A stretch of DNA of 64,000 nt from Aldrovandia affinis. Taxonomy: Eukaryota; Chordata; Actinopteri; Notacanthiformes; Halosauridae. The notes under the pieces were generated by a model. That model had not been told where the DNA came from. It saw only the letters and a program-made list of their open reading frames with translations, and made no database searches. The translations under genes and the position numbers were made by a program. The DNA lies in the NCBI GenBank assembly GCA_029706075.1, contig JAINUG010000261.1:1-64000 (forward strand). The letters are read 5' to 3'. This document shows, piece after piece, positions 7,354 to 61,315 of this stretch (positions are counted from its first letter, which is position 1; each line of letters starts with the position of its first letter).

Positions 7354-7354
<1 letters not shown>

Positions 7355-7405
<51 letters not shown>
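7355..7405. repeat. (CA)n microsatellite, copy 1
   Basis: Nearly pure CA dinucleotide run of about 51 bp. The orthologous tract in copy 2 (34642-34737) is about twice as long. Confidence 0.95.
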
Positions 7406-7409
<4 letters not shown>

Positions 7410-11642: not shown

Positions 11643-13374
11643 TGTTTCTTCAAGTGCAGTGTTAATGTTATCCCCTGATGGCCTTTACATTTCTTGCAGG
11701 ACATTGTATGGCCTCTAGTTGTGAAAGAAATGGCTGGTAATGCCAAATAAATATTTAATCTGGCACGATGAACAAAGATCCACATACATCCATGTATTAC
11801 TGTGCATTGTATAGAAACCTACTGTTGACATCATTTTATGGGCTAGAACATGATAGCTTGGATCCACTGCCTCCATAAATCATGTGGATGCTGGGAAAGT
11901 TAACATGGGAAAGGGGAGTGATGTCTGCAATGTGTTCATTTTTGCCCTTATCTTTTTTTAATAATAAAAAGTTTATTTTCATTAAACTTGGTTTCTGCAT
12001 TGGGTCTTGCGGTTATGATGTTCGAGCACCACTAGGGGGCCGCAATTGGCTGTCCGCCACAGGGTGGGGGGAGGGAAGCTGTCATGAGTTCACTGCGTAT
12101 AGGAGTACTGGCTCTGGAGTACCGTAGTTAGTCGACAGCTTGGCAAGTGCTGGCTCGGAGGAGACGATACTTTGCCTTTGTCACTGCCGGTCTCAGGCAG
12201 GGCTGTGGCTCAGTTGGAACTCACAACGCTTAGGTTGGGGTTAAATCCTACTGGGGTTGAAAAATGTGGCATTCACTAAATTGGGAGCTAAAATATGGGA
12301 TAAAATCAGAAACAAATTCGAGGGGGATTGAAAAGAATAGAAAACAACAAAATGTTTTCTGCATCTTAGTTTGTACTACCACATGTGACACACCAAACCA
12401 CACTTTAGGTCATACCAAAATGTGTAGAATTCACTAAATTTGACTCCAGTGTCTTGAAAATATACTCTTAAGGGTGTCATTTATGAAATGCGAACATGCT
12501 GGTGATCAGCAATTAAACGCTGTATTTCTCATTAGCTGCATACTGCACACTTCGCACATTATTCTGGAATGGTGCCATGCCTCTTATTGTGAGAATTACA
12601 CCGTTATACCACATATCGCCGGCTCATTAGCATTTCATTAATTGCACCCCAAGTTTGTATTTAGTAAATGTATTTCAGGTTTACACTATGTTACGTTTTG
12701 GACTTTTTAAAAAGTAGTTACTTTCTGTAATCTATCTTCAGATAGTTTGAAAAAGTAGTTACTTTCTGAGATTCAAATATTCTTATTCAAATATTTGTAA
12801 TTATACACAAATGGTATTTGATTAGTTTTCAAATAATAGTTACTTTTCACAAAGCATATTTGAAAATATATTTATCCCAGGGCTGGTACGTGTATGTACT
12901 TGTAGTAATGTCAAATAAAGAACGGTAGGAGACTGTGTACGCATAGTCTTCTCTCTCGAATGTACAATCTCACCAGATATACAACTTTCTGTACAGCTTC
13001 ATCTAGTGGGTGTACAGGGCATAACGCAGTTCAGCTGGTAGATGATAGAATTGAAAATAAGCGGTCAGCTGGCTGTGTGCTTTTCATTCACTTGCTAGTG
13101 AGTGTGCTCTGGAATTGACAGAAGGCATTGCAGTGATGGGATGGCCAACATCTACAATTTGTCCAAATCTAAATTGGGATGAAAAAGGAGAAAAATACTG
13201 TGGTCTCCAAGTTGTCAAAATATATTGAAACTCTTTTTGCTTTGCTAAACATATTGTAGTGAATTGGGATGGTTATAGTGTGTGGGAAGGGAAGAGGTAG
13301 TGTGTGTGGGTGCACATAGGCAAGTAAATGTTTGGTGCAGTTCACAGATATGCATTGAAACACATTTTCTTGAT

Positions 13375-13971: not shown

Positions 13972-13972
13972 C

Positions 13973-14302
13973 TGAGGAAATATGAATGAATAAATGGGAC
14001 AAATGTGAGATAACTATAAGTGAAGTGGCACTATGAGTATTTCTCAGGGTCATTACGAGTCCCGAGCTATATTACATCTACGTAACTGTCTCTTGGGAAT
14101 TTAAACTTCAAGTTTTGAACACAATTTAACCTAAATTGCTGAGCAAAAGACCTGCTGATTTCAACCCTCCCTCCCACAGCAATGTTCTTGCCAATTGTGC
14201 ATCACATGGAACACCAGACCAATCACCAGGATATTCCAGCCCTCAGTAAGTGTGAACCCAAACTGTTTATTTCTTTCTCTTTGAATTGCCTAGTGTTGTT
14301 AC
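13973..14302 (-). other. NXPE intron between the last two exons
   Basis: Bounded by GTAACA and TTTCCTCAG, about 330 bp. No repeats or other genes were seen. Confidence 0.75.
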
Positions 14303-15186: not shown

Positions 15187-15369
15187 CTCCCACCAAATCA
15201 TGAGTGCTTATAAACAATGTATGGCAAACATGGCACGAATGATTTCTAAACCTGAGATGACCAATGGCCATAAATAGAGTATCAGAAGAGTATGAATCAT
15301 AACACCTCATGAACAGTATCAGAAAACATTTTACAGGTAGGATGCAAAGTGTGTGTGGGTAAGAACATC

Positions 15370-21257: not shown

Positions 21258-21948
21258 TTCATATTGGAGAATACCCTTAAGCTCTTGAATTTCGAGCTGA
21301 AAGCTATTAATTTGCTTCTCTAACTCTCCTAATTCTAAAGGGAGGTAACTGACTCTATCATTTTTAAATCTGATTTACAATAACATTGGAAGAAATATAC
21401 ATTGACACATATGACAGCTTAACAGCAAAATATCTACAAAAGTGGTGTATCAAACCTTCAGTATAAATCAAACCCTTCAAAGGAGTATATATTCAAACCA
21501 TATTTTAACTCAAACAGATAACAATACACAGCAGCCCTTAATACCCTTGAAATGCACAAAAGAACAATGGAAAGTTATCGTTGTTATGTTCTTAAACCGT
21601 AGGTGTAGGCGTGAGCATTAATGTTCGCTGATGAAAAGGAATTTCTTCCGTGGCAGTCTTAATTGATCAGTTCCCAACTTTGGGATAATACTCACAGTTC
21701 CACTGCATGTGATTGTCTAGTTATGACTGTATCTGACCATCACACGGAATCCCTTAGCCCACTGCCCGTGGAGATGCCCGTTGAAGTCCTTGTCTCGACG
21801 ATCCAAGGTGAGGCGCAACACTGCTCGATAAAGGGTCCGATGTCGGCAGCAACACCGGACGTAGTAGCAATGTGGCACCGTGATCTTTCGTCGAGGACGC
21901 CGTTAAATGACGCAGCAGGGCGGCAGGATTGATGAGGTCAAGCTCTTA
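21258..21948 (-). other. BEL/Pao 5' untranslated leader
   Basis: About 690 bp between the 5' LTR and the first gag ATG. No ORF of significance is seen on the coding strand, and no tRNA primer-binding match was identified. Confidence 0.6.
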
Positions 21949-22535
21949 CTGTAGCATTCCCAGCTAGAATGATGGTCACTCTCAAGAACTGATGGTTTAT
22001 GCCGTTTTTATTTATGCATTTTCTTCAAACACACCGTGCATTTCCTTCACAAACGCACCGTGCATTTCCTTCACAAACGCAACGTGGGTTTCGTCATAAA
22101 CACACCGTAAGAGCTAAACAAAGCAAAAAAAAAAATACGTTGTCTCATTTTGCACAGCACAGCTTATAAACAATATATACATATTAAAATCTCTGTGTAG
22201 ACAACTCACTAATGAAGCATAATATAACTCAAAATTAGCTAATACAAACGAGAGAGCTAGTTAGGTTACAGATAGCATTACGCTGCTAATGTCCGAGGCT
22301 AGTTAACCAATTAGCTTAAAACAAACATTCTTTGGTACACATTCAACCGAATTACAAACAATTATCAAAGTAGACCATAAGAAGAAATACCTTGTCCGAC
22401 GTCCAGCTAGGTGCTAGGATGAGTTTAAAGTAGCTTAGAAAACAAAATTTCCCTTTCCTTTTCTCAATCAATTAGTTTTATGTCTTTCACCGTTAACAAT
22501 TTTTCCCTTCTCCCCGCAGGCTTCCCAACATGCCT
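21949..22535 (-). repeat. BEL/Pao 5' LTR (apparently truncated in U3)
   Basis: 587 bp, nearly identical to 14461-15048. It starts (minus strand) at AGGCATGTTGGGAAG directly after the target duplication and lacks the 138 bp that precede the same point in the 3' LTR. The inverted array of CACCGTGCATTTCCTTC repeats (22035-22080) is shared by both. Confidence 0.75.
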
Positions 22536-22603: not shown

Positions 22604-23818
22604 GAAAGATTGAAAAAGACAGATAGAAAAAGCAAGGGATGTACACATCTAAGAAATGTTCATCACCTCTTTACACTGTGAGTAGATGAGTAGATGGCTA
22701 GATTGAGAGAACAGGTTTGAAAATTTGCCAGGTTACCAGGGAACACCCCTACTCATTGTGAAAAGTGCCATGGAATCTTTAATTGCCACACTGAGTCAGG
22801 ATCTTGGTTTAACTGATTTTATTTGCTTGGCCAGGAGGGAACACCATCCCCTTCTGGACAACCAAGCCTAACCCTGCTTACCTTCAGCTATGAGGTCGAA
22901 GAAAATTACAGGATGGTCTGCCTGCTGAACATGAAATGATCATTGAAATGATATTTTTCTTCTGTGAAATTGTGTCAATTCGATCCAAATGGTCATATGT
23001 CAGAAATGATTTGATTAGATTTTTGAAATTATATGAAATTGTATAGAATTGTAGGAAAGCACATTATAGGCAAAAATGGGCATACCAGCACAGCCAATGA
23101 CTGTCACAGTGGGGAAGTTGTTTTGAATTTGTATTCCAACGTTTTGCCTAAAAAAAAGATAAGTATCACATTTAGAGTTAAAACAGTAAACTTTTGCAGT
23201 AAACTCATGAGCTGCCTTTTGACTGACCAACATTTGCTGTAGTTAAGCTGTACCTGATACCAGGTGGGTTAACTGGGTATGCCAAATATCGGCATTAAGA
23301 AAACTACAGATATAGTAGGAAGGCCACTAGCAAAAGTTAATCAGGCAGAAATTGATGTATTTACAATACAATGTGTAAATACAATTTAGCTCTTGAAAAG
23401 GAAAAATAAACAGCAATTTGACCTCCCATGCTATATTCTGGATTTGAATATACAAACATCAAGATCAATAATGTACAATAATGTTTAAATATCAATAATC
23501 AATAATGTAAACAACTTAATTGACCCACATATTTTTGTTGTGATATTTCCAAATCAGGAATATCAAAAGCACAAGCTTCAGAATCGAATTCCTCCATCAT
23601 AAGCTGGAGCAACATTTCTCATTTATTCATAAGTATGACCTAGGGTGTAGATGATACCAAAGAGGTTCAAATCCAAACACACTTCTTTGTCAACAGCATT
23701 CGAGCAGCAAGAGAGGCTCCACCAGCTGTAGTGTAAACTACCATACTGGGTGGTATTAGACCAACACACATACAGCTGAGGTGGATCTGTGGAAACTTAG
23801 CTTGAGCACAGATTTCTT
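22604..23818 (-). other. NXPE intron upstream of the interrupted exon
   Basis: About 1.2 kb of AT-rich sequence. At about 22850-22895 the minus strand reads GAAGGTAAGCAGGGTTAGGC and on, which loosely resembles the 5S rRNA internal promoter region and could be a 5S-derived SINE piece; this is weak. Nothing else is recognisable. Confidence 0.55.
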
Positions 23819-23820
23819 AC

Positions 23821-24464
23821 CGGGCTAGTAGCTGAGGTTCCTCCTTAGCATGAATGATGTAGGACTGCGTGATGGACAGGGAGCTGCAGGGCAGGGTCTT
23901 GGGCTGGTAGCAGGCAAAATATTCCCCATCCTCCTTCTTCTTGTACTCACACAGGGGTCTGTCTGTGATCAGCCGGAGACCGCAATGAGAGATCTCCTTT
24001 TTGCTCCCATTGATAAAGGTTCCCTTGTGTACGGCCTTACCATAGTCCAGCATCCAGTCTCTCTGGAGGATCTGTACTGCCTCGGAAGAGTGGATCAGAA
24101 GCACAGAGACCTGCAACTCTCCAGGCCAGAATAAGTGGAAATGCACCCGGTAGGAGCCATTGAGGAGGTCAGTGACCTCTCCTGATGCGGATGCATGGAG
24201 TTTGGGAGAGTGGACCCTGGCCAGGATGAAGTCCCCTCCGTACGCCTTTGGATGACCCCCATAGTTCCTCATCTCCACCAGCACATTCAGAGTGTCCCCC
24301 ACACAGTACTGGCTTCTGGGCTGTTCCAGCCTGACCACACTATGCCGAGCACTGGAAGAGTTCTGGAAAGAAGTGACTATCGGGAAGGCTGTCGGGCGAT
24401 ACTCCCGTAATGAGAAGATTATGTCATCCGCAGTCATCTCTTTGTATGGAGTTTGAAATTGCTC
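23821..24464 (-). CDS. NXPE gene, neurexophilin-domain exon
   Basis: Bounded by an acceptor (CCATCTTCACAG, edge at 24464) and a donor (GTAAGA, edge at 23821); 644 bp. It encodes about 214 residues. Landmarks of the neurexophilin-like domain include YCVGDTLNVLVEMRNYGGHP, a YGGDFILARV segment, NGSYRVHFHLFWPGELQVSV and a cysteine near CEYKKKEDGEYFACYQP. The Met at 24437 lies within the exon, about 9 residues in, and is probably not the true start. It ends in phase 2. The next recognised exon seems to need phase 1, so either a base is wrong or a splice site is missed. Confidence 0.88.
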
Positions 24465-35284: not shown

Positions 35285-35931
35285 CAACACTTCCTCAAGC
35301 CCAGGTAGGTCAAATGCTCTTCTCATATTACTAGTATTGTCAGTAATGATATTGCTGATTTTGCCATTGAATTCAAAGTGATTCATTGTTTCTTCAAGTG
35401 CAGTGTTAATGTTATCCCCTGATGGCCTTTACATTTCTTGCAGGACATTGTATGGCCTCTAGTTGTGAAAGAAATGGCTGGTAATGCCAAATAAATATTT
35501 AATCTGGCACGATGAACAAAGATCCACATACATCCATGTATTACTGTGCATTGTATAGAAACCTACTGTTGACATCATTTTATGGGCTAGAACATGATAG
35601 CTTGGATCCACTGCCTCCATAAATCATGTGGATGCTGGGAAAGTTAACATGGGAAAGGGGAGTGATGTCTGCAATGTGTTCATTTTTGCCCTTGTCTATT
35701 TTGGAGCACTTTCCTTTTTCATAATAAAAAGTTTATTTTCATTAAACTTGGTTTCTGCATTGGGTCTTGCGGTTACGACGTTCGAGCACCACTAGGGGGC
35801 CGCAATTGGATGTCCGCCACAGGGTGGGGGGAGGGAAGCCATCATGAGTTCACTGCGTATAGGAGTACTGGCTCTGGAGTACTGGCTCTGGAGTACCGGA
35901 GTTAGTCGACGGCTTGGCAAGTGCATTTGCA
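35285..35931. repeat. Partial leading unit of the tandem array
   Basis: Matches 11540-12150 of copy 1 and, unlike the three units that follow, keeps about 150 bp (AAGCCCAGGTAGGTCAAATG and on) next to CACTTCCTC. Its left edge is the deletion junction that removed the 7980-11540 equivalent. Confidence 0.8.
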
Positions 35932-36178
35932 TTTTAAGGCATTTTTTTAACTGACATTGAGGACTATATGGCATGAATACATGTATACTAGTCAGTGCAT
36001 ATGTACGTGCTGGTGATAAGATGAGATTTCGGATGACTTTGCAAGAACACGTTCAAATGTAGGTAACTGTATGGAATGTGCAGAGTATATCTACCATGCC
36101 GAATAGTAATCAGACCCAATGAATCCCATTAGATGTGTGGGGGAGAAAGTTCAAAATGTCTGAAGAGGTCAGGTCAGG

Positions 36179-36929
36179 TCAGTCAAAAGTCATGTAGTAT
36201 GTGCTTGAAATGTGCTGAAGTGTGTGACAGAAAGTGCAAACATCATGATTGTTGCTGTTGTTTTTCTGTACTTCTGTGCCCAAGACTATAACCGCACTTC
36301 TTTGCTCTGCTGTTGTTAGGGAACTAACTAAAGGGCGTAGCCCAAAGTAAAAATGTTTAAATGTTTCTCTGCCCAAATGGCAGAGGGTACACATAACCTT
36401 GCTGTGGATTTACTCACCAACCACTCCATTTCAGACTGGTGAATAAACATCCTATGTATTCACCAGCCCGAAACTGAGAGTATTGATCTTCCACGACAGA
36501 TCACAAACCCAATCACATAAACAGATCATATTACTTTCTTCCACTGTTCCAAAGTCCAGGTTTGTGCTCATTGTTGGTTATGCACCAGGTTTAGCATTTT
36601 TTCGAATATCAGCTTTGTGAAGCTCACAATGTAGTTTTTATTGAGACTGGGTCACAGAAGTGTATATTCAGTTCTGTGCCAATGTTTGAGGCCATTGTTT
36701 TGTGGTTTTTAGCAACTATCCTGTTAAGAGTCTGCCTATCCCTCTTGGTGAGCTTCGGCTTGTGACCACTATTTATCTTTCCTGACACAGTTTGTGTGGT
36801 GTATATGGTCATGATTTTCAACACTGTTCCCTTTGACACGTTAAATAAATTTGCTATTTCTGTAACTGATGCATAGCACCTGCCTCTTTCAAAATCTGTT
36901 AGATCCCTCATGTCGCTATAGAAACACAA
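36179..36929 (-). pseudogene. Tc1-like transposase N-terminal remnant, unit 1
   Basis: The frame from 36929 (DLTDFERGRCYASVTEIANL to FCDPVSIKTTL) is the best preserved of the four copies, about 100 codons covering both helix-turn-helix subdomains. It then decays. The C-terminal catalytic part is unrecognisable. Confidence 0.65.
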
Positions 36930-37175
36930 GCACTAAAGTGTTGATGATAAAATGTATTTTATAGCAGATTTTTTAAGAGAATGCATTACACTATTATCAG
37001 TGCCAGCACGATAAACATACAAACTCCAAAACATCTTAGCATGAGGTGCCTAATCGAAGTGGCATAGAAGATTAGAAAGAATGAGACTTGCACACCTACT
37101 AGATTCTCCAAAAATGAGTGTAATGGTTTTATCTAACCATGCAGGTTAGTTAATGATTCGACCCTTAGGTCTTCA

Positions 37176-37600
37176 TCAGAACTGATGTAGTACAGTTCTG
37201 TACTGTACAGTTCTGATGAAGTGTGCGAGTCTCTTTCTTTCTACTATTATCTGCACCGGCAACAATTCTAATATTTCTACAAGTTCTTGAAGGCAGTGGA
37301 TGTCAACCTGAGGGATCTTGGCTGGTGCATTTATGAGCCTTATTTTGTCTTGGTCTGCCCACAAGTTGGACCAAATCATTTTGAGATAAGAGTTCCAATA
37401 TACAGCAGTTCTCTCCATTCTTTTTGCAATGTTCAACACATCTTTCACAACAAGTTGAAGGACATGAGCAAAGCAGGCTTCACAATTGTGGAGTAACTCA
37501 TAGGATTCCACAACATTACTCTCCACATCAGTCCACCCATCCTCACATCCAGTGTTGTCACATGTTATATACACTTCCTCTAGTTGTGAAAGAAATGGCT
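37176..37600 (-). pseudogene. hAT transposase core fragment, unit 1
   Basis: 132 open codons, with CFAHVLQLVVKDVLNIAKRM and LQELVEILELLPV. It is one continuous frame here, whereas copy 1 is frameshifted. Only a slice of the catalytic core; no BED finger or dimerisation domain. Confidence 0.65.
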
Positions 37601-38298
37601 GGTAATGCCAAATAAATATTTAATCTGGCACGATGAACAAAGATCCACATACATCCATGTATTACTGTGCATTGTATAGAAACCTACTGTTGACATCATT
37701 TTATGGGCTAGAACATGATAGCTTGGATCCACTGCCTCCATAAATCATGTGGATGTTGGGAAAGTTAACATGGGAAAGGGGAGTGATGTCTGCAATGTGT
37801 TCTTTTTTGCCCTTGTCTATTTTGGAGCACTTTCCTTTTTCATAATAAAAAGTTTATTTTCATTAAACTTGGTTTCTGCATTGGGTCTTGCGGTTACAAC
37901 GTTCGAGCACCACTAGGGGGCTGCAATTGCATGTCCGCCACAGGGTGGGGGGAGGGAAGCCGTCATGAGTTCACTGCGTATAGGAGTACTGGCTCTGGAC
38001 TACTGGCTCTGGAGTATCGGAGTTAGTCGACGGCTTGGCAAGTGCATTTGCATTTTAAGGCATTTTTAAACTGACATTGAGGACTATATGGCATGAATAC
38101 ATGTATACTAGTCAGTACATATGTACGTGCTAGTGATAAGATGAGATTTAGGATGACTTTGCAAGAACACGTTCAAATGTAGGTAACTGTATGGAATGTG
38201 CAGAGTATATCTACCATGCCGAATAGTAATCAGACCCAATGAATCCCATTAGATGTGTGGGGGAGAAAGTTCAAAATGTCTGAAGAGGTCAGGTCAGG

Positions 38299-38783
38299 TC
38301 AGTCAAAAGTCATGTAGTATGTGCTTGAAATGTGCTGAAGTGTGTGACAGAAAGTGCAAACATCATGGTTGTTGCTGTTGTTTTTCTGTACTTCTGTGCC
38401 CAAGACTATAACTGCACTTCTTTGCTCTGCTGTTGTTAGGGAACTAACTAAAGGGCGTAGCCCAAAGTAAAAATGTTTAAATGTTTCTCTGCCCAAATGG
38501 CAGAGGGTACACATAACCTTGCTGTGGATTTACTCGCCAACCACTCCATTTCAGACTGGTGAATAAACATCCTATGGTTTTTAGCAACTATCCTGTTAAG
38601 AGTCTGCCTATCCCTCTTGGTGAGCTTCAGCTTGTGACCACTATTTATCTTTCCTGACACAGTTTGTGTGGTGTATGTGGTCATGATTTTCAACACTGTT
38701 CCCTTTGACACGTTAAATACATTTGCTATTTCTGTAACTGATGCATAGCACCTGCCTCTTTCAAAATCTGTTAGATCCCTCAT
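38299..38783 (-). pseudogene. Tc1-like transposase remnant, unit 2
   Basis: 111 codons from 38783; after VAKNH the frame crosses the unit-specific deletion and continues into unrelated codons. The novel fused frame is a by-product of the deletion. Confidence 0.55.
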
Positions 38784-39047
38784 GTCGCTATAGAAACACA
38801 GGCACTAAAGTGTTGATGATAAAATGTATTTTATAGCAGATTTTTTAAGAGAATGCATTACACTATTATCAGTGCCAGCACGATAAACATACAAACTCCA
38901 AAACATCTTAGCATGAGGTGCCTAATCGAAGTGGCATAGAAGATTAGAAAGAATGAGACTTGCACACCTACTAGATTCTCCAAAAATTAGTGTAATGGTT
39001 TTATCTAACCATGCAGGTTAGTTAATGATTCGACCCTTAGGTCTTCA

Positions 39048-39482
39048 TCAGAACTGATGTAGTACAGTTCTGTACTGTACAGTTCTGATTAAGTGTGCGA
39101 GTCTCTTTCTTTCTACTATTATCTGCACCGGCAACAATTCTAATATTTCTACAAGTTCTTGAAGGCAGTGGATGTCAACCTGAGGGATCTTGGCTGGTGC
39201 ATTTATGAGCCTTATTTTGTTTTGGTCTGCCCACAAGTTGGACCAAATCATTTTGAGATAAGAGTTCCAATATACAGCAGTTCTCTCCATTCTTTTTGCA
39301 ATGTTCAACACATCTTTCACAACAATTTGAAGGACATGAGCAAAGCAGGCTTCACAATTGTGGAGTAACTCATAGGATTCCACAACATTACTCTCCACAT
39401 CAGTCCACCCATCCTCACATCCAGTGTTGTCACATGTTATATACACTTCCTCTAGTTGTGAAAGAAATGGCTGGTAATGCAA
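39048..39482 (-). pseudogene. hAT transposase core fragment, unit 2
   Basis: 144 open codons, same landmarks as unit 1. One arm of the adjacent palindrome carries a substitution (GATTAAG for GATGAAG). Confidence 0.6.
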
Positions 39483-40174
39483 AATAAATATTTAATCTGG
39501 CACGATGAACAAAGATCCACATACATCCATGTATAACTGTGCATTGTATAGAAACCTACTGTTGACATCATTTTATGGGCTAGAACATGATAGCTTGGAT
39601 CCACTGCCTCCATAAATCATGTGGATGCTGGGAAAGTTAACATGGGAAATGGGAGTGATGTCTGCAATGTGTTCTTCATTTTTGCCCTTGTCTATTTTGG
39701 AGCACTTTCCTTTTTAATAATAAAAAGTTTATTTTCATTAAACTTGGTTTCTGCATTGGGTCTTGCGGTTACGACGTTCGAGCACCACTAGGGGGCTGCA
39801 ATTGCATGTCCGCCACAGGGTGGGGGGAGGGAAGCCGTCATGAGTTCACTGCGTATAGGAGTACTGGCTCTGGACTACTGGCTCTGGAGTATCGGAGTTA
39901 GTCGACGGCTTGGCAAGTGCATTTGCATTTTAAGGCATTTTTTAAACTGACATTGAGGACTATATGGCATGAATACATGTATACTAGTCAGTACATATGT
40001 ACGTGCTAGTGATAAGATGAGATTTAGGATGACTTTGCAAGAACACGTTCAAATGTAGGTAACTGTATGGAATGTGCAGAGTATATCTACCATGCCGAAT
40101 AGTAATCAGACCCAATGAATCCCATTAGATGTGTGGGGGAGAAAGTTCAAAATGTCTGAAGAGGTCAGGTCAGG

Positions 40175-40659
40175 TCAGTCAAAAGTCATGTAGTATGTGC
40201 TTGAAATGTGCTGAAGTGTGTGACAGAAAGTGCAAACATCATGGTTGTTGCTGTTGTTTTTCTGTACTTCTGTGCCCAAGACTATAACCGCACTTCTTTG
40301 CTCTGCTGTTGTTAGGGAACTAACTAAAGGGCGTAGCCCAAAGTAAAAATGTTTAAATGTTTCTCTGCCCAAATGGCAGAGGGTACACATAACCTTGCTG
40401 TGGATTTACTCGCCAACCACTCCATTTCAGACTGGTGAATAAACATCCTATGGTTTTTAGCAACTATCCTGTTAAGAGTCTGCCTATCCCTCTTGGTGAG
40501 CTTCAGCTTGTGACCACTATTTATCTTTCCTGACACAGTTTGTGTGGTGTATGTGGTCATGATTTTCAACACTGTTCCCTTTGACACGTTAAATACATTT
40601 GCTATTTCTGTAACTGATGCATAGCACCTGCCTCTTTCAAAATCTGTTAGATCCCTCAT
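40175..40659 (-). pseudogene. Tc1-like transposase remnant, unit 3
   Basis: The same 111-codon frame as unit 2, with identical deduced residues, in keeping with a very recent duplication. Confidence 0.55.
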
Positions 40660-40922
40660 GTCGCTATAGAAACACAGGCACTAAAGTGTTGATGATAAAA
40701 TGTATTTTATAGCAGATTTTTTAAGAGAATGCATTACACTATTATCAGTGCCAGCACGATAAACATACAAACTCCAAAACATCTTAGCATGAGGTGCCTA
40801 ATCGAAGTGGCATAGAAGATTAGAAAGAATGAGACTTGCACACCTACTAGATTCTCCAAAAATGAGTGTAATGGTTTTATCTAACCATGCAGGTTAGTTA
40901 ATGATTCGACCTTAGGTCTTCA

Positions 40923-41320
40923 TCAGAACTGATGTAGTACAGTTCTGTACTGTACAGTTCTGATGAAGTGTGCGAGTCTCTTTCTTTCTACTATTATCTG
41001 CACCGGCAACAATTCTAATATTTCTACAAGTTCTTGAAGGCAGTGGATGTCAACCTGAGGGATCTTGGCTGGTGCATTTATGAGCCTTATTTTGTTTTGG
41101 TCTGCCCACAAGTTGGACCAAATCATTTTGAGATAAGAGTTCCAATATACAGCAGTTCTCTCCATTCTTTTGCAATGTTCAACACATCTTTCACAACAAT
41201 TTGAAGGACATGAGCAAAGCAGGCTTCACAATTGTGGAGTAACTCATAGGATTCCACAACATTACTCTCCACATCAGTCCACCCATCCTCACATCCAGTG
41301 TTGTCACATGTTATATACAC
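40923..41320 (-). pseudogene. hAT transposase core fragment, unit 3
   Basis: As in unit 2, but split into two frames by a single-base loss in a T run near 41168. Confidence 0.6.
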
Positions 41321-42184
41321 TTCCTTTAGTTGTGAAAGAAATGGCTGGTAATGCCAAATAAATATTTAATCTGGCACGATGAACAAAGATCCACATACAT
41401 CCATGTATAACTGTGCATTGTATAGAAACCTACTGTTGACATCATTTTATGGGCTAGAACATGATAGCTTGGATCCACTGTCTCCATAAATCATGTGGAT
41501 GCTGGGAAAGTTAACATGGGAAATGGGAGTGATGTCTGCAATGTGTTCTTCATTTTTGCCCTTGTCTATTTTGGAGCACTTTCCTTTTTAATAAAAGTTT
41601 ATTTTCATTAAACTTGGTTTCTGCATTGGGTCTTGCGGTTACGATGTTCGAGCGCCACTAGAGGGCGGCAATTGGCTGTCCGCCACAGGGTGGGGGGAGG
41701 GAAGCTGTCATGAGTTCATTGCGTATAGGAGTGGCTCTGGAGTACCGTAGTTAGTCGACAGCTTGGCAAGTGGTGGCTAGGAGGAGATGATACTTCACCT
41801 TTGTCAATGCCGGTCTCAGGGCTATGGCAGTGAACTCACAATACGAGCGGGGGATTGACAGGGTTTAATTGGCTACTAAATTGGGAGAAATATGGGATAA
41901 AATCAGAAACAAATTCTGAAAAAACCCCAAAACAACTTGTTTTCTGCATCTTAGTTTGTACTACCACATGTGACACGCCAAACCACACTTTAGGTCATAC
42001 CAAAATGTGTAGAATTCACTCAATTTGACTCCAGTGTCTTGAAAATATACTCTTAAGGGTGTCATTTATGAAATGCGAACATGCTGGTGATCAGCAATTT
42101 AACGCTTTATTTCTCATTAGCTGCATACTGCACACTTCGCACATTATTCTGGAATGGTGCCATGCCTCTTATTGTGAGAATTAC

Positions 42185-42736
42185 TGTTACGTATTGGATA
42201 CGCAGGTGAATGCAGGTAGGACCCAAGCGCAGGACGATGACACAGGATGATATAGGTGAGGGTATTTAATAAATAAATACACACAAGGACTGGAACAGGG
42301 AACACAGGTAAGGGCAGACGAAGGCAAGCACGTAGGGAAGCTGGCTTGGAGGCAGGGCAGGGAGCTGGCTGGTCCGAGGGCACGCGGCAGGACAGGCAGG
42401 ACAGGCAGGACAGGCAGGACAAAAAACTATTGGATACCAACGGGGAAGGAGCCAGGCAGGGAAAACACACACACACACAACGAACTGACAATCGAATGAA
42501 GGGGAAAACTGGGGTACATATACTCTGCAGGGCTGATGAACTTGATGGGAGGCTGGTGTGCCGGAATAGGCAACAGGTGAACATGATGAGTGGTAACGAG
42601 GAATGATAACGGATAATTGAAAATAATAAAACAATTAACAACAATCACAAGGGAGAAAAGGAAAACCGAGATAGGAACAAGGGAAAAACTGTCAGGAAAC
42701 ACAAGGGAGATGGACAGGACGGACGGAGACGCAACA
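42185..42736 (-). repeat. LTR1 (3' LTR in element orientation)
   Basis: 552 bp. It contains a 10-bp tandem repeat (GGCAGGACAG, about four copies at 42385-42420), a short CA run and GTATTTAATAAATAAATACA. Near-identical to LTR2 and LTR3 apart from single-base indels. The outer edge is at the target duplication; the inner edge GCAACA abuts the polypurine tract. Confidence 0.85.
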
Positions 42737-44703
42737 GTACCCCCCCCAACGGGAGCCTCCTGGCGACCCACCAGGCCTATCGGGATCCTCCCGATGAAAA
42801 TCCCGGATGAGGAAGGGATCCCAGATGACCCGGGCGGGTGGGGGGGAATGGCTGGAGGGCACCGAGGACAAAAAGTGTCGCTTGAGGACGGGCCCCAGTG
42901 GGCCCTCGGGGAGGCCGGCGGCAGCAGGGCGCGGTGGCCTCGTAGGCCGGCGGCAGCAGGGCGCGGTGGGCCTCGGGAGGCCGGGCGGCAGCAGGGCGCG
43001 GTGGGCCTCGGGAGGCCGGGCGGCAGCAGGGGCGGTGGGCCGTCGGGGCCGGCGGCAGCAGGGCGGTGGGCCTCGGGAGGCCGGGCAGCAGCAGGGCAGG
43101 GGCAGGGGGCGGGGCGGCCGGGCGGCAGCAGGGGGCGTTGGGCCCGGGAGGCCGGCGGCAGCAGGGGGCGTTGGGCCCTCGTGAGGCCCGCGGCAGCAGG
43201 GGGCGTTGGGCCCTCGTGAGGCCCGCGGCAGCAGGGGGCGTTGGGCCTCGGAGGCCCGCGGCAGCAGGGGGGCTGGGCCCTCGTGAGGGCCCGCGGCAGC
43301 AGGGGGCGTTGGGCCTCGTGAGGCCCGCGGCAGCAGGGGGCGTGGGCCCTCGTGGAGGCCCGCGGCAGCAGGGGGTGGGGCCTCGCCGAGGCCCGCGCAG
43401 CAGGGACGTAGGGGCCCTCGGGAGGCCCGCGGCAGCAGGGGGCGTTGGGCTCGAGGAGGCCCGCGGCAGCAGGGGGCGTGGGACCTCGGGAGGCCCGCGA
43501 CGCCAGGCAAGGAAAGGCCTCGGGAGGCCTGCGACGCCAGGCAAGGAGAGGTCCTCGGGAGGCCTGCGACGCCAGGCAAGGAGAGGACTCGGGAGGCCTG
43601 CGACGCCAGGCAAGGAGAGAGCCCTCGGGAGGCCTGCGACACCAGGCAAGGAGAAGCCTCGGGAGGCCTGCGACAACAGGCAAGGAGAGGCCCTCGGGAG
43701 GCCCGCGCGGCAGGGCGCGCTGGGGGGCCTCGGGAGGCCGGCGAAGGCAGGGCGGCAGGGCCTCGGGAGGCCCGGCGAAGGCAGGGCGCGTTGGGCCTCG
43801 GGAGGCCGGCGAAGGCAGGGCGCGTTGGGCCCTCGGGAGGCCGGCGAAGGCAGGGCGCGTTGGGCCCTCGGGAGGCCGGGCGAAGGCAGGGCGTTGGGCC
43901 CTCGGGAGGCGGGCGAAGGCAGGGCGCGTTGGGCCTCGGGAGGCCGGCGAAGGCAGGGCGCGTTGGGCCTCGGGAGGCCGGGCGAGGGCGTTGGCCTCGG
44001 GCAGGGCGCGTTGGGCCCTCGGGAGGCCGGCGAAGGCAGGGCGCGCTGGGCCCTCGGGAGGCCGGCGAAGGCAGGGCGCGTTGGCCCTCGGGAGGCCGCG
44101 AAGACAGGGCGCGTTGGGCCCTCGGGAGGCCTGCGAAGACAGGGCGCGTTGGCCCTCGGGAGGCCTGCGAAGACAGGGGGCGCTTGGGCCCCTCGGGAGG
44201 CCTCGAAGACAGGGCGCGCTTGGGCCCTCGGGAGGCCTGCGAAGACAGGGCGCGTTGGGCTCCCTCGGGAGGCCTGCGAAGACAGGGCGCGTTGGGCCCT
44301 CGAGGCCTGCGAAGCACAGGGCGCTGGGCCCCGGGGAGGCCTGCGAAGACAGGGCGCGTTGGGCCCTCGGGAGGCCTGCGAAGACAGGGCGCATTGGGCC
44401 CTCGGGAGGCCTGCAAGACAGGGCGCATTGGGCCTCGGGAGGCCTGCGAAGACAGGGCGCATTGGGCCCCTCGGGAGGCCTGCGAAGACAGGGCGCATTG
44501 GGCCCTCGGGAGGCCTGCGAAGACAGGGCGCATTGGGCCTCGGGAGGCCTGCGAAGACATTGGGCCTCGGGGAGGGCGAAGACATTGGGCCCTCGGGAGG
44601 CCTCGAAGACAGGGCGCATTGGGCCCTTGGGGAGGCTGACGGTGCCAGGCAAGGAGGGGCCCTTGGAGAGGCCGGGTGACAGCAGGGCGCCATGGGCTCC
44701 CAA
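42427..44703 (-). other. Stop-free frame across core 1 (758 codons), Pro/Arg-rich repeats
   Basis: The deduced product is repeats such as RPPEGPNAPCLR and AGLPRAQRAL. Two other minus frames (42692-44881, 42777-44693) and two plus frames (43066-44679, 43445-45055) are similarly open across the same DNA. Units of 36 bp would keep a 12-residue repeat in phase, but C-run changes shift the frame from unit to unit. Reported as a property of the repeat, not as a gene. Confidence 0.3.
42737..42755 (-). promoter_or_regulatory. Polypurine tract of the LTR element
   Basis: On the minus strand CTCCCGTTGGGGGGGGTAC lies directly before the LTR. A G run plus TAC before the LTR is the usual plus-strand primer site of fish Gypsy-type elements. 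It is absent from core 2, where LTR2 is joined straight to the minisatellite. Confidence 0.65.
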
Positions 44704-44930
44704 GGAGGGTGGCAGGAGTCAGCGGAAGAGGAGGCCTCAGGCGATGGGCTCCCTCGGCGAGGCCGGCCACAGCAAGCAGCGATGGACCCTCAGAGGCCGG
44801 CATGAGCGAGTGGTGAGCGGTCCCCAGGGAGGCCGGCAGGAGCCAGCGAGGAGGGACCCACAGGGAGGCCTGCGATGCCAAGCAAGGAGAGTTAGGCAGG
44901 GTTTCCGGGAAGATCGGTGTTTCTTAATAA
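42895..44930. repeat. Core 1: zoned GC-rich minisatellite (34-36 bp units)
   Basis: About 55-60 head-to-tail units of the form GGAGGCCTGCGAAGACAGGG + CGCGTTGGGCCCTC. Unit types change in order: GGCGGCAGCAGGGCGC (to about 43140), CGCGGCAGCAGGGGGC (to 43500), TGCGACGCCAGGCAAGGAG (to 43710), GGCGAAGGCAGGGCGC (to 44095), TGCGAAGACAGGGCGC (to 44620), then several more diverged units to about 44900. The C run before TCGGG varies from 2 to 4. All six frames stay open for hundreds of codons because the repeat lacks stop triplets. Confidence 0.92.
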
Positions 44931-45015
44931 GGTCCAGATGCTTCCCCAACTGGGATATGTTGGCATTGATTTCTGCGGAGATCTTATGGAAACTGTCATC
45001 GACTGCTGGGTCCAT
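44737..45015 (-). CDS. Short gag-like ORF of the LTR element running into the minisatellite
   Basis: ATG at 45015, about 17 bp inside the element from LTR2. It encodes MDPAVDDSFHKISAEINANI then SQLGKHLDLIKKHRSS, a start resembling Gypsy-type gag openings (MDPA...), followed by Pro/Arg-rich residues from the first minisatellite units; stop at 44737. In core 2 the equivalent ATG (about 47546) is followed by a 2-bp loss that breaks the frame. Whether it is translated is unknown; the minisatellite may be an expanded piece of gag. Confidence 0.45.
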   Translation of the reverse strand: MDPAVDDSFHKISAEINANISQLGKHLDLIKKHRSSRKPCLTLLAWHRRPPCGSLLAGSCRPPWGPLTTRSCRPLRVHRCLLWPASPREPIA

Positions 45016-45031
45016 GATGGTCAGTTCGCTC

Positions 45032-45580
45032 TGTTACGTATTGATACGCAGGTGAATGCAGGTAGGACCCAAGCGCAGGACGATGACACAGGATGATATA
45101 GGTGAGGGTATTTAATAAATAAATACACACAAGGACTGGAACAGGGGAACACAGGTAAGGGCAGACGAAGGCAAGCACGTAGGGAAGCTGGCTTGGAGGC
45201 AGGGCAGGGAGCTGGCTGGTCCGAGGGCACGCGGCAGGACAGGCAGGACAGGCAGGACAGGCAGGACGAAAAACTATTGGATACCAACGGGGAAGGAGCC
45301 AGGCAGGGAAAACACACACACACACAACGAACTGACACCGAATGAAGGGGAAAACCGGGTACATATACTCTGCAGGGCTGATGAACTTGATGGGAGGCTG
45401 GTGTGCCGGAATAGGCAACAGGTGAACATGATGAGTGGTAACGAGGGAATGATAACGGGATAATTGAAAATAATAAAACAATTAACAACAATCACAAGGG
45501 AGAAAAGGAAAACCGAGATAGGAACAAGGGAAAAACTGTCAGGAAACACAAGGGAGGTGGACAGGACGGGACGGAGACGC
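45032..45580 (-). repeat. LTR2 (middle LTR)
   Basis: Starts TGTTACGT at 45032. The far end stops at GGAGACG and is fused to minisatellite sequence (CAGTGGGCCCTC), lacking the terminal CAACA, the polypurine tract and about 165 bp found between LTR1 and the repeat in core 1. Confidence 0.85.
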
Positions 45581-47440
45581 AGTGGGCCCTCCCGGGAGAC
45601 CGGCGGCAGCAGGACGCAGTGGGCCCTCGGGAGGCCGGCGCAGCAGTGGGGGCCAGGGCCCTCGGGTGAGGCCCGCGGCAGGGGGCAAGCTGGGCGTTAG
45701 GCCTCGGGAGGCCGACGGCAGCAGGGGGCGTGGGCCCTCGTGGGCCGCGGCGCAGGGGGCGTGGGCTCGTGGAGGCCGCGGTGAGGGGCCCTCGTGGAGG
45801 CACGCGGCAGGGGGCGTTGGGCCCCTCGTGGAGGCCCGCGGCAGCAGGCGTTGGGCCTCGTGAGGCCCCCGCAAGGGGGCGTTGGGCCCTAGGCCCGCGG
45901 CAGCAGGGACGTAGGGGCCTCGGGAGGCCCGCGGCAGCAGGGGGCGTTGGGCCCTCGATGAGGCCCGCCGGCAGCAGGGGGCGTTGGGACCTCGGGAGGC
46001 CCGCGACGCCCAGGCAAGGAAAGGCCCTCGGGAGGCCTGCGACGCCAGGCAAGGAGAGGTCCTCGCGGGGAGGCCCTGCGACGCCAGGCAAGGAGAGGAC
46101 TCGGGAGGCCTGCGACGCCAGGCAAGGAGAGGCCCTCGGGGAGGCCTGCGACACCAGGCAAGGAGAAGCTCCTCGGGAGGCCTCAGCACAACAGGCAAGG
46201 AGAGCCCCCTCGGGAGGCCCGCGGCGGCAGGGAACTCAGGCCCTCGGGAGGCCGGCGAAGGCAGGGCGATGGGCCCTCGGGAGGCCGGGCTAAGGCAGGG
46301 CGCTGCTTGGGCCCTCGGGAGGCCGCAAGGCAGGCGCGTCGGGCCTCGGGAGGCCGAAGGCCCGGGGAGGCCGGGCGAAGGCCCTCTCGGGAGGGCCGGC
46401 GAAGGCAGGGCGCGTTGGGCCCTCGGGGAGGCCGGCGAAGGCAGGGCGCGTTGGGCTCTCGGGAGGCCGGCGAAGGCAGGGCGCGTTGGGCCCTCGGGAG
46501 GCGGCGAAGGCAGGGCGCGTTGGGCCCTCGGGAGGGGCCGGCGAAGGCAGGCGCGTTGGGCCTCGGGGAGGCCGGCGAGGCAGGGGCGCGTTGGGCCCTC
46601 GGGAGGCCTGCGAAGACAGGGCGCGTTGGGGCCCTCGGGAGGCCCCTGAAGGCAGGGCGCGTTGGGCCTCGGGGAGGCCTGCGGAGCAGGGCGCGTTGGG
46701 CCCTCGGGAGGCCTGCGAAGCAGGGCGCGTTGGGCCCTCGGGAGGCCTGCGAGCCAAGCGCGTTGGGCCCTCGGGAGGCCTGCGAAGACAGGGCGCGCGT
46801 TGGCCTCGGGGAGGCCTGCGAAGACAGGGCGTTGGGCCTCGCGGGAGGCCTGCGAGGCAGGGCGGCGAGGCTCTCGGGAGGCCTGCGAAGACAGGGCGCA
46901 TTGGGCCTCGGGAGGAGGCCACGAAGAGGCAGGCGCGTTGGGCCCTCGGGAGGCCTGCAAGACAGGCGCGTTGGGCCCCTCGGGAGGCTGCGAGGACAGG
47001 GCGTTGAGCCCTTGGGCGAAGACAGGGCGCAGCCCCTCCCGGGAGGCTGCGAAGACAGGGCGCACTGGGCCTCGGGAGGCCTGCGAAGACAGGCATTGGG
47101 CCGGGGAGCCTGCGGGAGGCCTGGGAGGCCTAAGACAGGGCATTGGGCCTTGCGGGCCGCTTTGGGGAGGCTGAGCGGTGCCAGGCAAGGAGGAGCCCTG
47201 GAGAGGCCGGTGACAGCAGGGCGCCATGGAGGCTCCCAAGGAGGGTGGCAGGAGTCAGCGGCGTAGAGGCCTCAGGCGATGGGCCCCTCGGCGGGCCGGC
47301 CACAGCAAGCAGCGATGGACCCCTCAGAGGCCGGCATGAGCGAGTGGTGAGCGGTCCTCAGGGAGGCGGCAGGGAGCCAGCGAGGAGGACCCACAGGGAG
47401 GCCTGCGATGTAAGCAAGGAGAGTTAGGCAGGGTTTCGGG
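45581..47440. repeat. Core 2: zoned GC-rich minisatellite
   Basis: Same unit families in the same order as core 1, with changes at about 45660, 46000, 46215, 46590 and 47150. Zone lengths differ from core 1, and indels within units are more numerous. It ends with the same AGGGTTTC...GAAGATCGGTGTTTC sequence as core 1. The 566-codon minus frame (45539-47239) and others are stop-free by composition. Confidence 0.9.
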
Positions 47441-47562
47441 GAAGATCGGTGTTTCTTAATAAGGTCCAGATGTTTCTCCCAACTGGGATATGTTGGCATT
47501 GATTTCTGCGGAGATCTTGGAAACTGTCATCGACTGCTGGGTCCATGATGGTCAGTTCGTTC

Positions 47563-48116
47563 TGTTACGTATTGAATCGCAGGTGAATGCAAGGCCGGAC
47601 CCAAAGCGTTTGGCGATGACACAGGATGATATAGGTGAGGGTATTTAATAAATAAATACACACAAGGACTGGGAAACAGGGGAACACAGGTAAGGGCAGG
47701 AAGGCAAGCACGTGGGGAAGCTGGCTTGGAGGCAGGGCAGGGAGCTGGCTGGTCCGAGGCACGCGGCAGGACAGGCAGGACAGGCAGGAAGAGGCAGGGG
47801 CGAAAAACTATTGGATACCAACGGGAAGGAGGCCAGGCAGGGAAAACACACACACACAAACGGAACTGACACCGAATGAAGGGGAAAACCGGGGTACATA
47901 TACTCTGCAGGGCTGATGAACTTGATGGGAGGCTGGTGTGCCGAATAGGCAACAGGTGAACATGATGAGTGGTAACGAGGAATGATAACGGATAATTGAA
48001 AATAATAAAACAATTAACAACAATCACAAGGGGAGAAAAGGAAAACCGAGATAGGAACAAGGGAAAACTGTCAGGAAACACAAGGGAGGTGGACAGGACG
48101 GGACGGAGACGTAACA
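47563..48116 (-). repeat. LTR3 (5' LTR in element orientation)
   Basis: 554 bp, TGTTACGT to ACGTAACA. It differs from LTR1 and LTR2 by many small indels (for example GGCCGGACCCAAAGCGTTTGG for GTAGGACCCAAGCGCAGG). On the minus strand it is followed by GAACGAACTGACCATC and the ATG of the gag-like frame; no standard tRNA primer site was recognised. Confidence 0.85.
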
Positions 48117-48789
48117 ATTACACCGTTATACCACATATCGCCGGCTCATTAGCATTTCATTAATTGCACCCCAAGTTTGTATTTAGTAAATGTATTTCAG
48201 GTTTACACTATGTTACGTTTTGGACTTTTTAAAAAGTAGTTACTTTCTGTAATCTATCTTCAGATAGTTTGAAAAAGTAGTTACTTTCTGAGATTCAAAT
48301 ATTCTTATTCAAATATTTGTAATTATACACAAATGGTATTTGATTAGTTTTCAAATAATAGTTACTTTTCACAAAGCATATTTGAAAATATATTTATCCC
48401 AGGGCTGGTACGTGTATGTACTTGTAGTAATGTCAAATAAAGAACGGTAGGAGACTGTGTACGCATAGTCTTCTCTCTCGAATGTACAATCTCACCAGAT
48501 ATACAACTTTCTGTACAGCTTCATCTAGTGGGTGTACAGGGCATAACACAAGCACAGCTTTCACCAAATAAATAGAGTCATTCCTTAATACATTTCAGGG
48601 ATGAGCAGTATTGTACTTTACTAAAGACTTTGGATCAGTATTTGTGAATTGACTTAGTAATTTAAATGCAATCCTTCTGCAGTAACAGGGTTTTTCACAG
48701 CAGTTTTAATATAATTTGTGAACTGTGAAAAAAAAACTGTGTCCACACCGCAGAACAACTGAATAAGTTATGATTTCACATGCTTACTT

Positions 48790-51206: not shown

Positions 51207-51306
51207 NNNNNNNNNNNNNNNNNNNNNNNNNNNNNNNNNNNNNNNNNNNNNNNNNNNNNNNNNNNNNNNNNNNNNNNNNNNNNNNNNNNNNNNNNNNNNN
51301 NNNNNN
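51207..51306. other. Assembly gap (100 N)
   Basis: Exactly 100 N, the conventional placeholder for a gap of unknown size. It sits at the right edge of segment copy 2, inside the expected second NXPE 3' exon. Confidence 0.99.
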
Positions 51307-54825: not shown

Positions 54826-55735
54826 AAAAGCAACTCGCTCGGATCATGCTTTGATGATCAAGCACGCATGATCGAGCAACTCAGGTCTAAACTCATAGAC
54901 ATGGAGGACAGAAGTCGTAGAAATAATTTGAAGCTAGTTAGCTTACCAGAATCGGCAGAGGGCTCCAATGCCATTGCCTTCCTTTAGAAGAATTTGCCGA
55001 AGTGGATCCCTACCCTGACCAGTCGTCACATTCCAATAGAGAGGGCTCATCGCATATATGAAGGGAAAAGTGCGGTTCCAATTCAAGGACGCAAATTTTC
55101 CGTCTGCTGAACTACACGGACAGACAAGCGATACTGAATGAAGTAAGGGACACACACCCTACCCATGACCGGCACAACCTGCTCTTCTTTGTGGATTACA
55201 GTAAGGAGACTTCACGCAACAGGAAAGAGATGTCCCAGTTCAGACGTCGTCTGGAGGCTACTGGATTGCAACTGCAACCCTTTCTGATGTATCCGGCTAT
55301 TCTAATATACGCCATTTAGCAGACGCTTTTATCCAAAGCAATTTACAGTAGTGAATGCATACATTTTCAGTATATGTGGTCCCAGTGGGGATTGAACCCA
55401 CAACCTAAGCGTTGCCAACGCTGTACTCTACCTACTGAGCCACACAGAACCACATACCTAAAGGTGACATACCAAGGCAAGCAGCTACAACTACATTCAC
55501 TGAAGGAGGCAGTTTCTTCAGTCTTTGCAACCGCTGAGGAGGCCCCGTGAACCAGGTGCAGAAGCTCCACTGGACAACAACGAGATGGATCTCAGCGGAC
55601 CCCCGGGAGGTGACACTCGAACCCGGAGTGGTGCCCAACCACCGTGGACGGCTCCAGCGGCCAGAGTGGCTTCGCCGGTCAACGTTGCATCGATGGGTAC
55701 CGCCAACTCACTGAGTAATGGTAGCAACTAGCTAA
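54826..55735 (+). pseudogene. L1 ORF1 C-terminal part (transposase_22-like), interrupted
   Basis: MEDRSRRNNLKLVSLPESAE (about 54900), then LPKWIPTLTSRHIPIERAHR, LLFFVDYSKETSRNRKEMSQ and QGKQLQLHSLKEAVSSVFAT (about 55480) are consecutive parts of fish L1 ORF1 proteins. Several stops and frame changes, and a repeat (55300-55465) inserted between the last two. It continues the L1 piece at 52262-52612. Confidence 0.75.
55300..55465. mobile_element. Teleost tRNA-related repeat
   Basis: Contains CATTTAGCAGACGCTTTTAT-CC and GGGGATTGAACCCACAAC-C followed by CTACTGAGCCACA, a pair of blocks found together in a very common teleost repeat. On the minus strand the second block looks like a tRNA (A and B boxes: TGGCTCAGTAGG, GGTTCAATCCCC). 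Inserted in L1 ORF1. Confidence 0.7.
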
Positions 55736-59533: not shown

Positions 59534-61315
59534 CTAGTTATGTTCATAAATGTTCAGGTCAGTCGAGGACAATGTGGGGGTGAAGAGGCACTGTGTCACA
59601 TCGCGGCTGTATGTGATATCTTGAGCTGGGCCTTGCAGTGTCCATCCCAGGCGTGTCCTCACAGTGGCTGGCCCACCAGGAAGTCCCAATCGAACATGCT
59701 CTATGGGTGTAATGAGGTGTGTGCAGTCAGAGACAATCAGCAGCACTGGGTGTACTCTGTTCAGCGACTGGAGAGGCAATCCGGCTAGGTGTCTGTACTT
59801 CTTCTGCAGTGTGCTGACAGGATAAGTGTGCTCTGCCAGCCCCAGCTGCTCGGCAGTGAATGCACTGTGAATCTTAAACCTCTCCGTAGGCTCAGCGGCA
59901 GGGGATATGGTGAAGGATACGGCCGCCCCGTGGAGCACCTGCAGCTCCTGTCTGACTGTGCGGAATCCTCTGGCTTCCCTTCAAGGCCTAACTTCTTTGC
60001 TGCTGCATGTAGAAGCATGGTCCGCTGTGATCCACCATCCAGCACAGCATATGCCTCCAATGTCCTGTTGCCATTCCTTATGATGACCTTGCTGATCTTC
60101 AGGAGCACTTTACAGTCGTATGATGGGCGGTTGACGTAACTGACTACACTGGCTGTGTTCACAAGACAGTTCTCTACCGTGGCCGTCGCTGGCGATTCAC
60201 CTCATGCCGTCGCTGGCGATTCACCTCATGCAGCACAAGCAGGTGTTTCCTGTTGCACATCTTGCAGGGGGCCTTCAGTGTGCACTTCGCTGCTCGATGG
60301 CCACGTCCACAACGCCAGCACCTGTTATTGCTTCTGATCAACGACTCCTTCTGCTCTCTATTCAGCTGCTTGAAGTTGGCACAGCTGTTCAGATAGTGGT
60401 TGGTGTTGTCGCAGTATGGACAGTAGGCGTTCCTTCTGTCCATCACACCGCGACTGTTGGCTGGAGGCTCCGGTGCGAGCGGGGATGTTAGGGCATGCGT
60501 CTCAGCTGCCTTCTCTGTGCCCAGGAGGACGGTGGTGGTCTTGCTCACATGCTTGGAGTCTCTCCGGTTCTCTTTCTTTCTGATGGATGACTCCACTTTA
60601 CTGTAGCTGGCACTCTTCCCACTGTCCTCTTGCACTTCCAGCTCATATTCCAACCAGTCTGCAAAATCTGTGAGTGTGGGGATGGCTACTCTCATGGGGT
60701 GGATGAATCTCTTGAAGCTGACAGTGAGGTCATGGGGTAGCTTACCCAGCACTCTGGCATACCCACCAGCGAGCGCACACGGAGAGCAAACAGGCGAAAG
60801 GCTTTCAAATCTCCACTGCAGACATCTGGGCCATCCATCAACTCTGTGATGTGTTGCACAGCCAGCTTGTGAGGCTGCCCGTACTTTTTGGTGAGAGCCA
60901 GCATCGTGTCTGTGTAAGGCTGCCTGGAGTTGCAGTAGGAATTGGCCACGAGTGAGGCTTCCTCATGTTTCAGATGGTCTGTGAGGATCTGGAACTTAAA
61001 TCGCTCCGTGGCATCAACTGGGGGGATGTTCTCCAGTGCAATCTTCATCTTTGAAAACTCTCTCGGGTCTGGCGACATCAGGTCTGGGATAGATGGCTTG
61101 GGACCTCTGTAGGTTCGCTCTCTAATGGTTGGCAGCTCTTCATAGGGGGAGCGATGTGGGAAGTATCCTCTCCCTGTTCCATCTGTGTACCCATACCGTG
61201 GCTCACGCAGTGTGTAGAATGGCGACGGCTGGGTTCTCTGGCCATACTGGTCTGCCCGGGCGTAACTTACTCGGGGAGGGGCAGGATGATATGGTAAATA
61301 GGAGCTGTCTGTCAT
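59534..61315 (-). pseudogene. Second BEL/Pao-type element: gag and protease only
   Basis: Four overlapping minus-strand frames, read in order: 61315-60692 (Pro/Tyr-rich start, LMSPDPREFSKMKIALENIP and KYGQPHKLA, capsid-like), 60752-60174 (a C-x2-C-x4-H-x4-C-like pair and CWRCGRGHRAAKC), 60162-59785 (protease, YAVLDGGSQRTML) and 59938-59534 (protease C-terminal region and link to RT). RT onwards is absent. An in-frame 24-bp duplication (HEVNRQRR twice) lies at 60180-60230. It differs from the element in the NXPE exon and is decayed. Confidence 0.8.

Follow-up and report, generated by a model that had tools for sequence, protein, structure and literature searches.

Non-autonomous LTR elements of the TRIM and LARD types consist of LTRs and replication signals and carry no enzymes. 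Tandem LTR retrotransposons with the order LTR-core-LTR-core-LTR are described, in the accessible portions of the reports, from rice (PMC11899658) and for Cassandra and BARE1 (PMC7215508), and the rice case lies within one target duplication. The Ty3/gypsy elements Ogre and Gmr9/GmOgre contain internal tandem repeats, which according to the available text of PMC9659126 lie within the 3' UTR or next to it, in elements that are classed there as autonomous. Self-priming, as presented in the accessible parts of PMC6317226 and PMC10085805, is typical of the Tf1/sushi elements of fungi and vertebrates, chromoviruses that include sushi-ichi of Takifugu and Tf1 of fission yeast.

Here we describe a locus of Aldrovandia affinis that can be compared with each of these systems. 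The sequence examined, referred to below as the window, comprises positions 1-64,000 of contig JAINUG010000261.1 (assembly GCA_029706075.1, forward strand). It contains a composite that is a gutted LTR element with a repeat array in place of genes, in which two fused copies are arranged around one middle LTR. The component parts are of known kinds and their combination is unusual. The element resembles Tf1/sushi chromoviruses in having a self-primer complementary to an LTR-adjacent primer site, outer LTR ends that fit the Sushi motif and a gag-like start directly past the primer site. It differs from them in the absence of reverse transcriptase, integrase and a full gag, in its minisatellite core and in the fusion of two units; since the element is without pol, this likeness stands apart from pol phylogeny. 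Relative to the tandem elements, as far as these are described in the portions of the reports cited above, the locus is distinguished by a truncated middle LTR, by loss of the polypurine tract at a microhomology and by cores that are mostly minisatellite. Nearly the whole interior is replaced here, in contrast to the Ogre and Gmr9/GmOgre repeats. From TRIM and LARD elements it differs by a zoned minisatellite core, a remnant gag-like start and a pol-tail-like end. Among the titles and abstract beginnings listed by searches of the open literature, as opposed to subscription journals and repeat databases, no LTR element of a fish or other vertebrate was found whose core is a minisatellite.

Results

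Architecture of the composite and its insertion site

Sequence inspection and blastn give the order LTR1, core 1, LTR2, core 2, LTR3 between the two copies of ATTAC (Table 1). The outer LTR ends are TGTTACG and CGTAACA, and thus the TG...CA termini and the target duplication of an LTR retrotransposon are both present, the duplication being visible also at an empty site. As in tandem LTR retrotransposons, the units have an internal LTR in common inside one target duplication. The primer site that follows a 5' LTR is present in both cores, and the polypurine tract that precedes a 3' LTR is found in core 1 only.

Table 1 Features of the composite element and of its paralogous empty site (window positions).
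Feature	Positions	Strand	Basis
Paralogous empty site with single ATTAC at 12595-12599	12074..13028	+	alignment of joined flanks
Target site duplication ATTAC, left copy	42180..42184	.	sequence; single ATTAC at paralogous empty site
LTR1, 3' LTR in element orientation	42185..42736	-	blastn
Core 1 (2295 bp)	42737-45031	-	
Polypurine tract, minus strand CGTTGGGGGGGGTAC, adjoining LTR1	42737..42751	-	sequence; function inferred from position
Pol-tail-like peptide, 35 residues, core 1 only	42740..42844	-	translation
Core-1 minisatellite, unit ~35 bp, zones A-B-C-D-E-F, limits approximate	42895..44650	-	repeat detection, parsing
Gag-like start of core 1, 44 codons from ATG at 45015	44884..45015	-	translation
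Primer-binding site of core 1 (putative), 11 nt, one G-U with self-primer	45020..45030	-	complementarity, fold
LTR2, middle LTR common to both units; terminal ACA missing on right	45032..45581	-	blastn, sequence
Self-primer GTCAGTTCGTT in LTR2, predicted R start	45326..45336	-	complementarity, fold
TATA box TATATGTA in LTR2, 31 nt before self-primer	45360..45367	-	sequence
6-bp microhomology GACGCA at LTR2/core-2 junction	45576..45581	+	sequence
Core 2 (1981 bp)	45582-47562	-	
Core-2 minisatellite, zone order as core 1, limits approximate; tract and pol tail absent	45582..47160	-	repeat detection, parsing
Gag-like start of core 2	47418..47546	-	translation
Primer-binding site of core 2 (putative), AACGAACTGAC	47551..47561	-	complementarity
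LTR3, 5' LTR in element orientation; most divergent copy	47563..48116	-	blastn, alignment
Target site duplication ATTAC, right copy	48117..48121	.	sequence; empty-site comparison

Alignment of the joined flanks with the paralogous site yielded 884 identical columns out of 956, with near-perfect agreement beside the insertion point. The right flank is identical to the paralog at 434 of 435 bp, with a single substitution counted over 434 aligned columns. On the left, 4 substitutions fall within the 225 columns closest to the insertion, and internal indels are absent from both stretches (0 in 434 and 0 in 225 columns). Farther left, the duplicate copies become more mosaic (89% over 904 columns). 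Because the flanks match an uninterrupted paralog with one ATTAC, the composite represents a single insertion that duplicated 5 bp of target, or grew from such an insertion, in one of the two duplicates. The arrangement of LTRs and cores between a single ATTAC duplication that had been proposed in an earlier note on this DNA is therefore correct in its coordinates, as judged by the blastn-defined LTRs, the flanking ATTAC copies and the empty site.

Pieces of a segmental duplication are found in the window (1-13028 versus 26173-48550), and the composite is in one copy and the empty site in the other. Pfam matches occur at 13430-14053 (NXPE4_C) and at 23817-24437 (Neurexophilin family). A segment of ~1.9 kb is present in tandem copies at 35456-41772, which are about 92-98% identical and end ~400 bp left of the element.

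Minisatellite cores

Repeat detection found tandem periods of 34-35 bp in core 1 and core 2, alongside longer multiples. Parsing divided core 1 into 48 pieces and core 2 into 44, mostly of 33-37 bp, several of which represent two unsplit units or short fragments. Unit types A/B, C, D, E and F run in equal order in both cores, as the earlier note had observed: the longest common subsequence of the type strings is 35 (of 48 and 44), whereas the best of 1000 shuffles reaches 26 and the value falls to 13 when the order is reversed. Within the C zone, the best core-1 partner is the same-place unit for all six of the core-2 units. The reverse direction gives 4 of 6 core-1 units that are strictly best in place, one that is tied three ways and one that is better elsewhere. 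Core 2 is without a non-repeat left part of ~160 bp that core 1 has. As judged by eye, degenerate units continue to ~44883 in core 1 and to ~47420 in core 2, and their position on the gag side suggests that the array grew from inside. The common order of units supports the view that the zoned core would have been complete before its duplication, and both this proposal of the earlier note and its description of a non-autonomous LTR element are upheld. Its figure of at least 2 kb of repeat per core needs correction, as core 1 measures 2295 bp and core 2 1981 bp, a little below 2 kb, and neither core is pure minisatellite.

Long ORFs in the cores were considered as genes and rejected, for the stop-free 35-bp unit rotates through the frames and is open on both strands. 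Since the array reads open in several frames of either strand, its ORFs provide no evidence of genes. A structural role of the array RNA was weakened as a candidate by the observation that the fold of a 290-nt stretch has a small stability advantage over shuffled sequence (z -1.67, a level reached by 11 of 200 shuffles).

Coding strand and remnant coding segments

The coding strand of the element is the minus strand, on which each core presents a primer site 1 base past the LTR and then an ATG. The gag-like frame of core 1 stays open for 92 codons, running into degenerate units, and the gag-like start of core 2 leaves the core-1 frame after 9 codons. These gag-like starts and the 35-residue pol-tail-like peptide may correspond to the gag starts and pol ends of fish chromoviruses. 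In a scan that covered the 92-aa gag-start peptide and the 729-aa core-1 ORF, no Pfam family was matched at E up to 1, a result consistent with the claim of the earlier note that enzymatic genes are missing. Protein database searches with peptides of the element found no relative. Where Tf1/sushi chromoviruses have a chromodomain, at the end of integrase, all that is left here is the 35-residue tail-like peptide, which gave no Pfam or protein match. Searches of viral and genome contig collections with LTR DNA patterns returned 0 matches, the LTR matched no phage or plasmid sequence, and three short window peptides were not found in paper texts.

Self-priming and LTR signals

Primer sites for tRNA start with TGG, a start that the primer site of this element does not have. 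The core-2 site AACGAACTGAC has an exact complement of 11 nt in both LTR1 and LTR2, and LTR3 offers 8; a match of 11 nt was reached by 4 of 5000 dinucleotide shuffles of LTR2. The core-1 site is weaker, with 9 perfect bases (a length reached by 70 of 5000 shuffles) followed by one G-U and one more pair. In the unconstrained free-energy fold of LTR2 R-U5 with the core-1 site, nt 1-11 pair with the site and neighbouring bases form more duplexes, and the stability of the folded R-U5/primer-site region as a whole does not exceed that of shuffled sequence (z -0.48, a level reached by 33 of 100 shuffles). The expected start of the transcript is predicted to fall at the LTR2 self-primer, 31 bases after TATATGTA. 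Self-priming of the Tf1/sushi kind is accordingly seen here at the level of sequence, as 11 complementary nt and pairing in the fold, with the transcript start as a prediction.

The outer LTR ends fit the Sushi LTR end motifs TGTYANR...CNTNACA given in the accessible part of PMC3601003, and the rGmr1 motifs of that source fit equally; the inner end of LTR1, TGTTGCG, is outside the Sushi motif. The Sushi LTR model, built mainly on zebrafish LTRs, has a clear AATAAA according to PMC3601003. A search of the element strand for AATAAA, ATTAAA and TTTATT found AATAAA in none of the three LTRs and ATTAAA once in each. This difference from the Sushi model concerns a feature of one LTR model that is outside the definition of the Tf1/sushi group.

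The complementarity of the primer site to the LTR after the TATA box, together with the pairing in the fold, leads to a reading of the element as a Tf1/sushi derivative. Moreover, the coding strand, gag-like start, pol-tail-like segment, polypurine tract and self-priming site, none of which was part of the earlier note, place the element near the Tf1/sushi chromoviruses. We therefore consider it probable that the element, which is coded on the minus strand and non-autonomous, derives by deletion from an LTR retrotransposon of the Tf1/sushi type (chromovirus, Ty3/gypsy), the gag and pol identities of its remnants being putative. In such a derivative, gag-pol would have been nearly all replaced by a GC-rich minisatellite of ~35-bp units, and the signals for copying in trans would have been kept in the form of LTRs with a TATA box, the self-priming site, the gag-like start and the polypurine tract. 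The transcript would fold back and prime its own copying, which would be done by the enzymes of an autonomous relative.

Origin of the three-LTR form

The three LTRs are not equally divergent. With positions 42186-42738 as query, blastn gives 98.0% identity to LTR2 and 93.6% to LTR3. The MAFFT alignment contains 4 substitutions in 546 columns for LTR1/LTR2, 32 in 545 for LTR1/LTR3 and 27 in 543 for LTR2/LTR3; gap placement differs in blastn, which counts 18 mismatches for LTR1/LTR3. Private substitutions number 4 in LTR1, 0 in LTR2 and 27 in LTR3. The LTR2-core1-LTR1 portion looks like a normal unit, and LTR3-core2 is more divergent. At the junction between them, LTR2 runs straight into core 2; its terminal three bases are missing, as are the tract and the pol tail. 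LTR2 ends at GACGCA, a hexamer found also in a core-2 unit.

From this arrangement we tentatively prefer, at less than even odds, a fusion of two copies that preceded integration to a clean LTR crossover. In this reading, one cDNA (LTR2-core1-LTR1) would have lost three bases from its 5' end and been joined there, via GACGCA, to a second copy (LTR3-core2) whose array was broken; a single integration of the fusion product would have followed. The rationale for this preference is that one joining event explains both the divergence of LTR3 and the truncated junction, whereas LTR exchange followed by deletion needs two events. A clean LTR crossover with a deletion at the junction nevertheless yields an identical map.

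Such a crossover could have been an unequal exchange between both LTRs of one integrated element, on sister chromatids or homologues, with a later deletion of ~160 bp that removed the tract, the pol tail and three LTR bases. Unequal exchange would keep the single target duplication and the equal order of units, and it has been proposed for tandem LTR elements in the accessible part of PMC11899658, as has exchange among arrays in that of PMC7215508. Apart from requiring two events, it is at odds with the finding that LTR2 carries 0 of the 27 LTR3-private substitutions and that the private counts are far from equal, although errors could cause this pattern; we regard this exchange as possible but doubtful.

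Somewhat less likely still is the reverse transcription of a tandem transcript, derived for example from a one-LTR circle or from read-through, that was inserted whole after a template switch at GACGCA had deleted the tract. One event would then account for one duplication and for the microhomology junction, and a one-LTR circle as the source of such transcripts is proposed for plant tandem elements in the available text of PMC11899658. Both halves would come from one template, however, and the higher divergence of LTR3 and core 2 would have to be error.

The quality of the letters bears on all of these readings. Indels compare with substitutions as 7 to 4 for LTR1/LTR2 and as 12 to 13 for the unique part of the core, compared with ratios of 0-0.33 in seven hand-chosen control pairs of window paralogs. 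Pooled, LTR1/LTR3 and the core show 45 substitutions and 23 indels, versus 70 and 9 in four non-overlapping controls (Fisher p = 0.0013); the LTR1/LTR3 ratio alone is 0.34 (MAFFT) and two other window pairs give 0.35 and 0.37, such that the ratio is not conclusive. The LTR3-private substitutions are clumped: of the 26 gaps between neighbours, 19 span 5 columns or fewer, and no more than 14 did so in any of 20000 random placements. Furthermore, LTR1/LTR3 divergence exceeds flank divergence, though the insertion should postdate the duplication, barring gene conversion that evened the flanks. For these reasons, the indel excess, the clumping and the divergence above that of the flanks, part of the difference between copies is probably consensus error, of which the near flanks show none. 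If the extra divergence of LTR3 and core 2 is sequencing error, the case for two source copies may be removed.

The same observations can be carried further, to a locus with one LTR-core-LTR element, in which noisy reads were duplicated during assembly to give an extra core and an extra LTR. The indel-rich copy differences and the clumped LTR3 substitutions speak for it, as does the proximity, at 3 kb, of a gap. We consider it unlikely, given that the structural difference of core 2 falls at a clean microhomology of 6 bp, that the adjoining flanks are free of noise against the paralog and that the LTR1/LTR3 ratio is no higher than in two other window pairs. The gap itself consists of 100 N at 51207-51306, ~3 kb right of the element.

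The one ATTAC pair and the empty-site paralog around the composite led us to reject recombination of two independent insertions. The suggestion in the earlier note of recombination between LTRs of two copies is weakened on this ground, and further by the truncation of LTR2 at the microhomology and by the lack of LTR3-private substitutions in LTR2, unlike a possible LTR1/LTR3 hybrid.

Discussion

How might an element of this kind be maintained? One speculative model, to which we assign a low likelihood, is that a family of self-priming, minisatellite-cored parasites of Tf1/sushi elements spreads in this genome, with the array of near-palindromic ~35-bp units, open in many frames, kept as an aid to copying or packaging. 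Its members would be able to join up as cDNA, end to end, prior to integration and would thereby seed dispersed GC-rich minisatellites. Should the core be common to copies elsewhere, a retrotransposon would be tied directly to the way in which GC-rich minisatellites spread in a vertebrate. With an empty site nearby, the fused form is an example that can be dated, and it bears on whether tandem LTR elements arise before integration or after it. The locus also carries a warning, namely that assemblies may be poorly polished where GC-rich arrays lie inside repeats.

Other mobile elements are present in the window. A BEL/Pao element at 14461-22535 has matches to peptidase A17, reverse transcriptase and integrase (RVT_1 and rve below the Pfam cut-off), terminal repeats of ~588 bp that are 99.3% identical, and two overlapping ORFs, hence one coding break near 18.3 kb. 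A second BEL/Pao-like gag fragment, also in two overlapping ORFs, is located at 60174-61315, with DUF1759 in the ORF at 60692-61315. On the minus strand at 55306-55451, a tRNA-Ala-like sequence lies beside a UnaL2 LINE 3' element, and the pair probably represents a SINE of tRNA origin that ends in an L2 tail.
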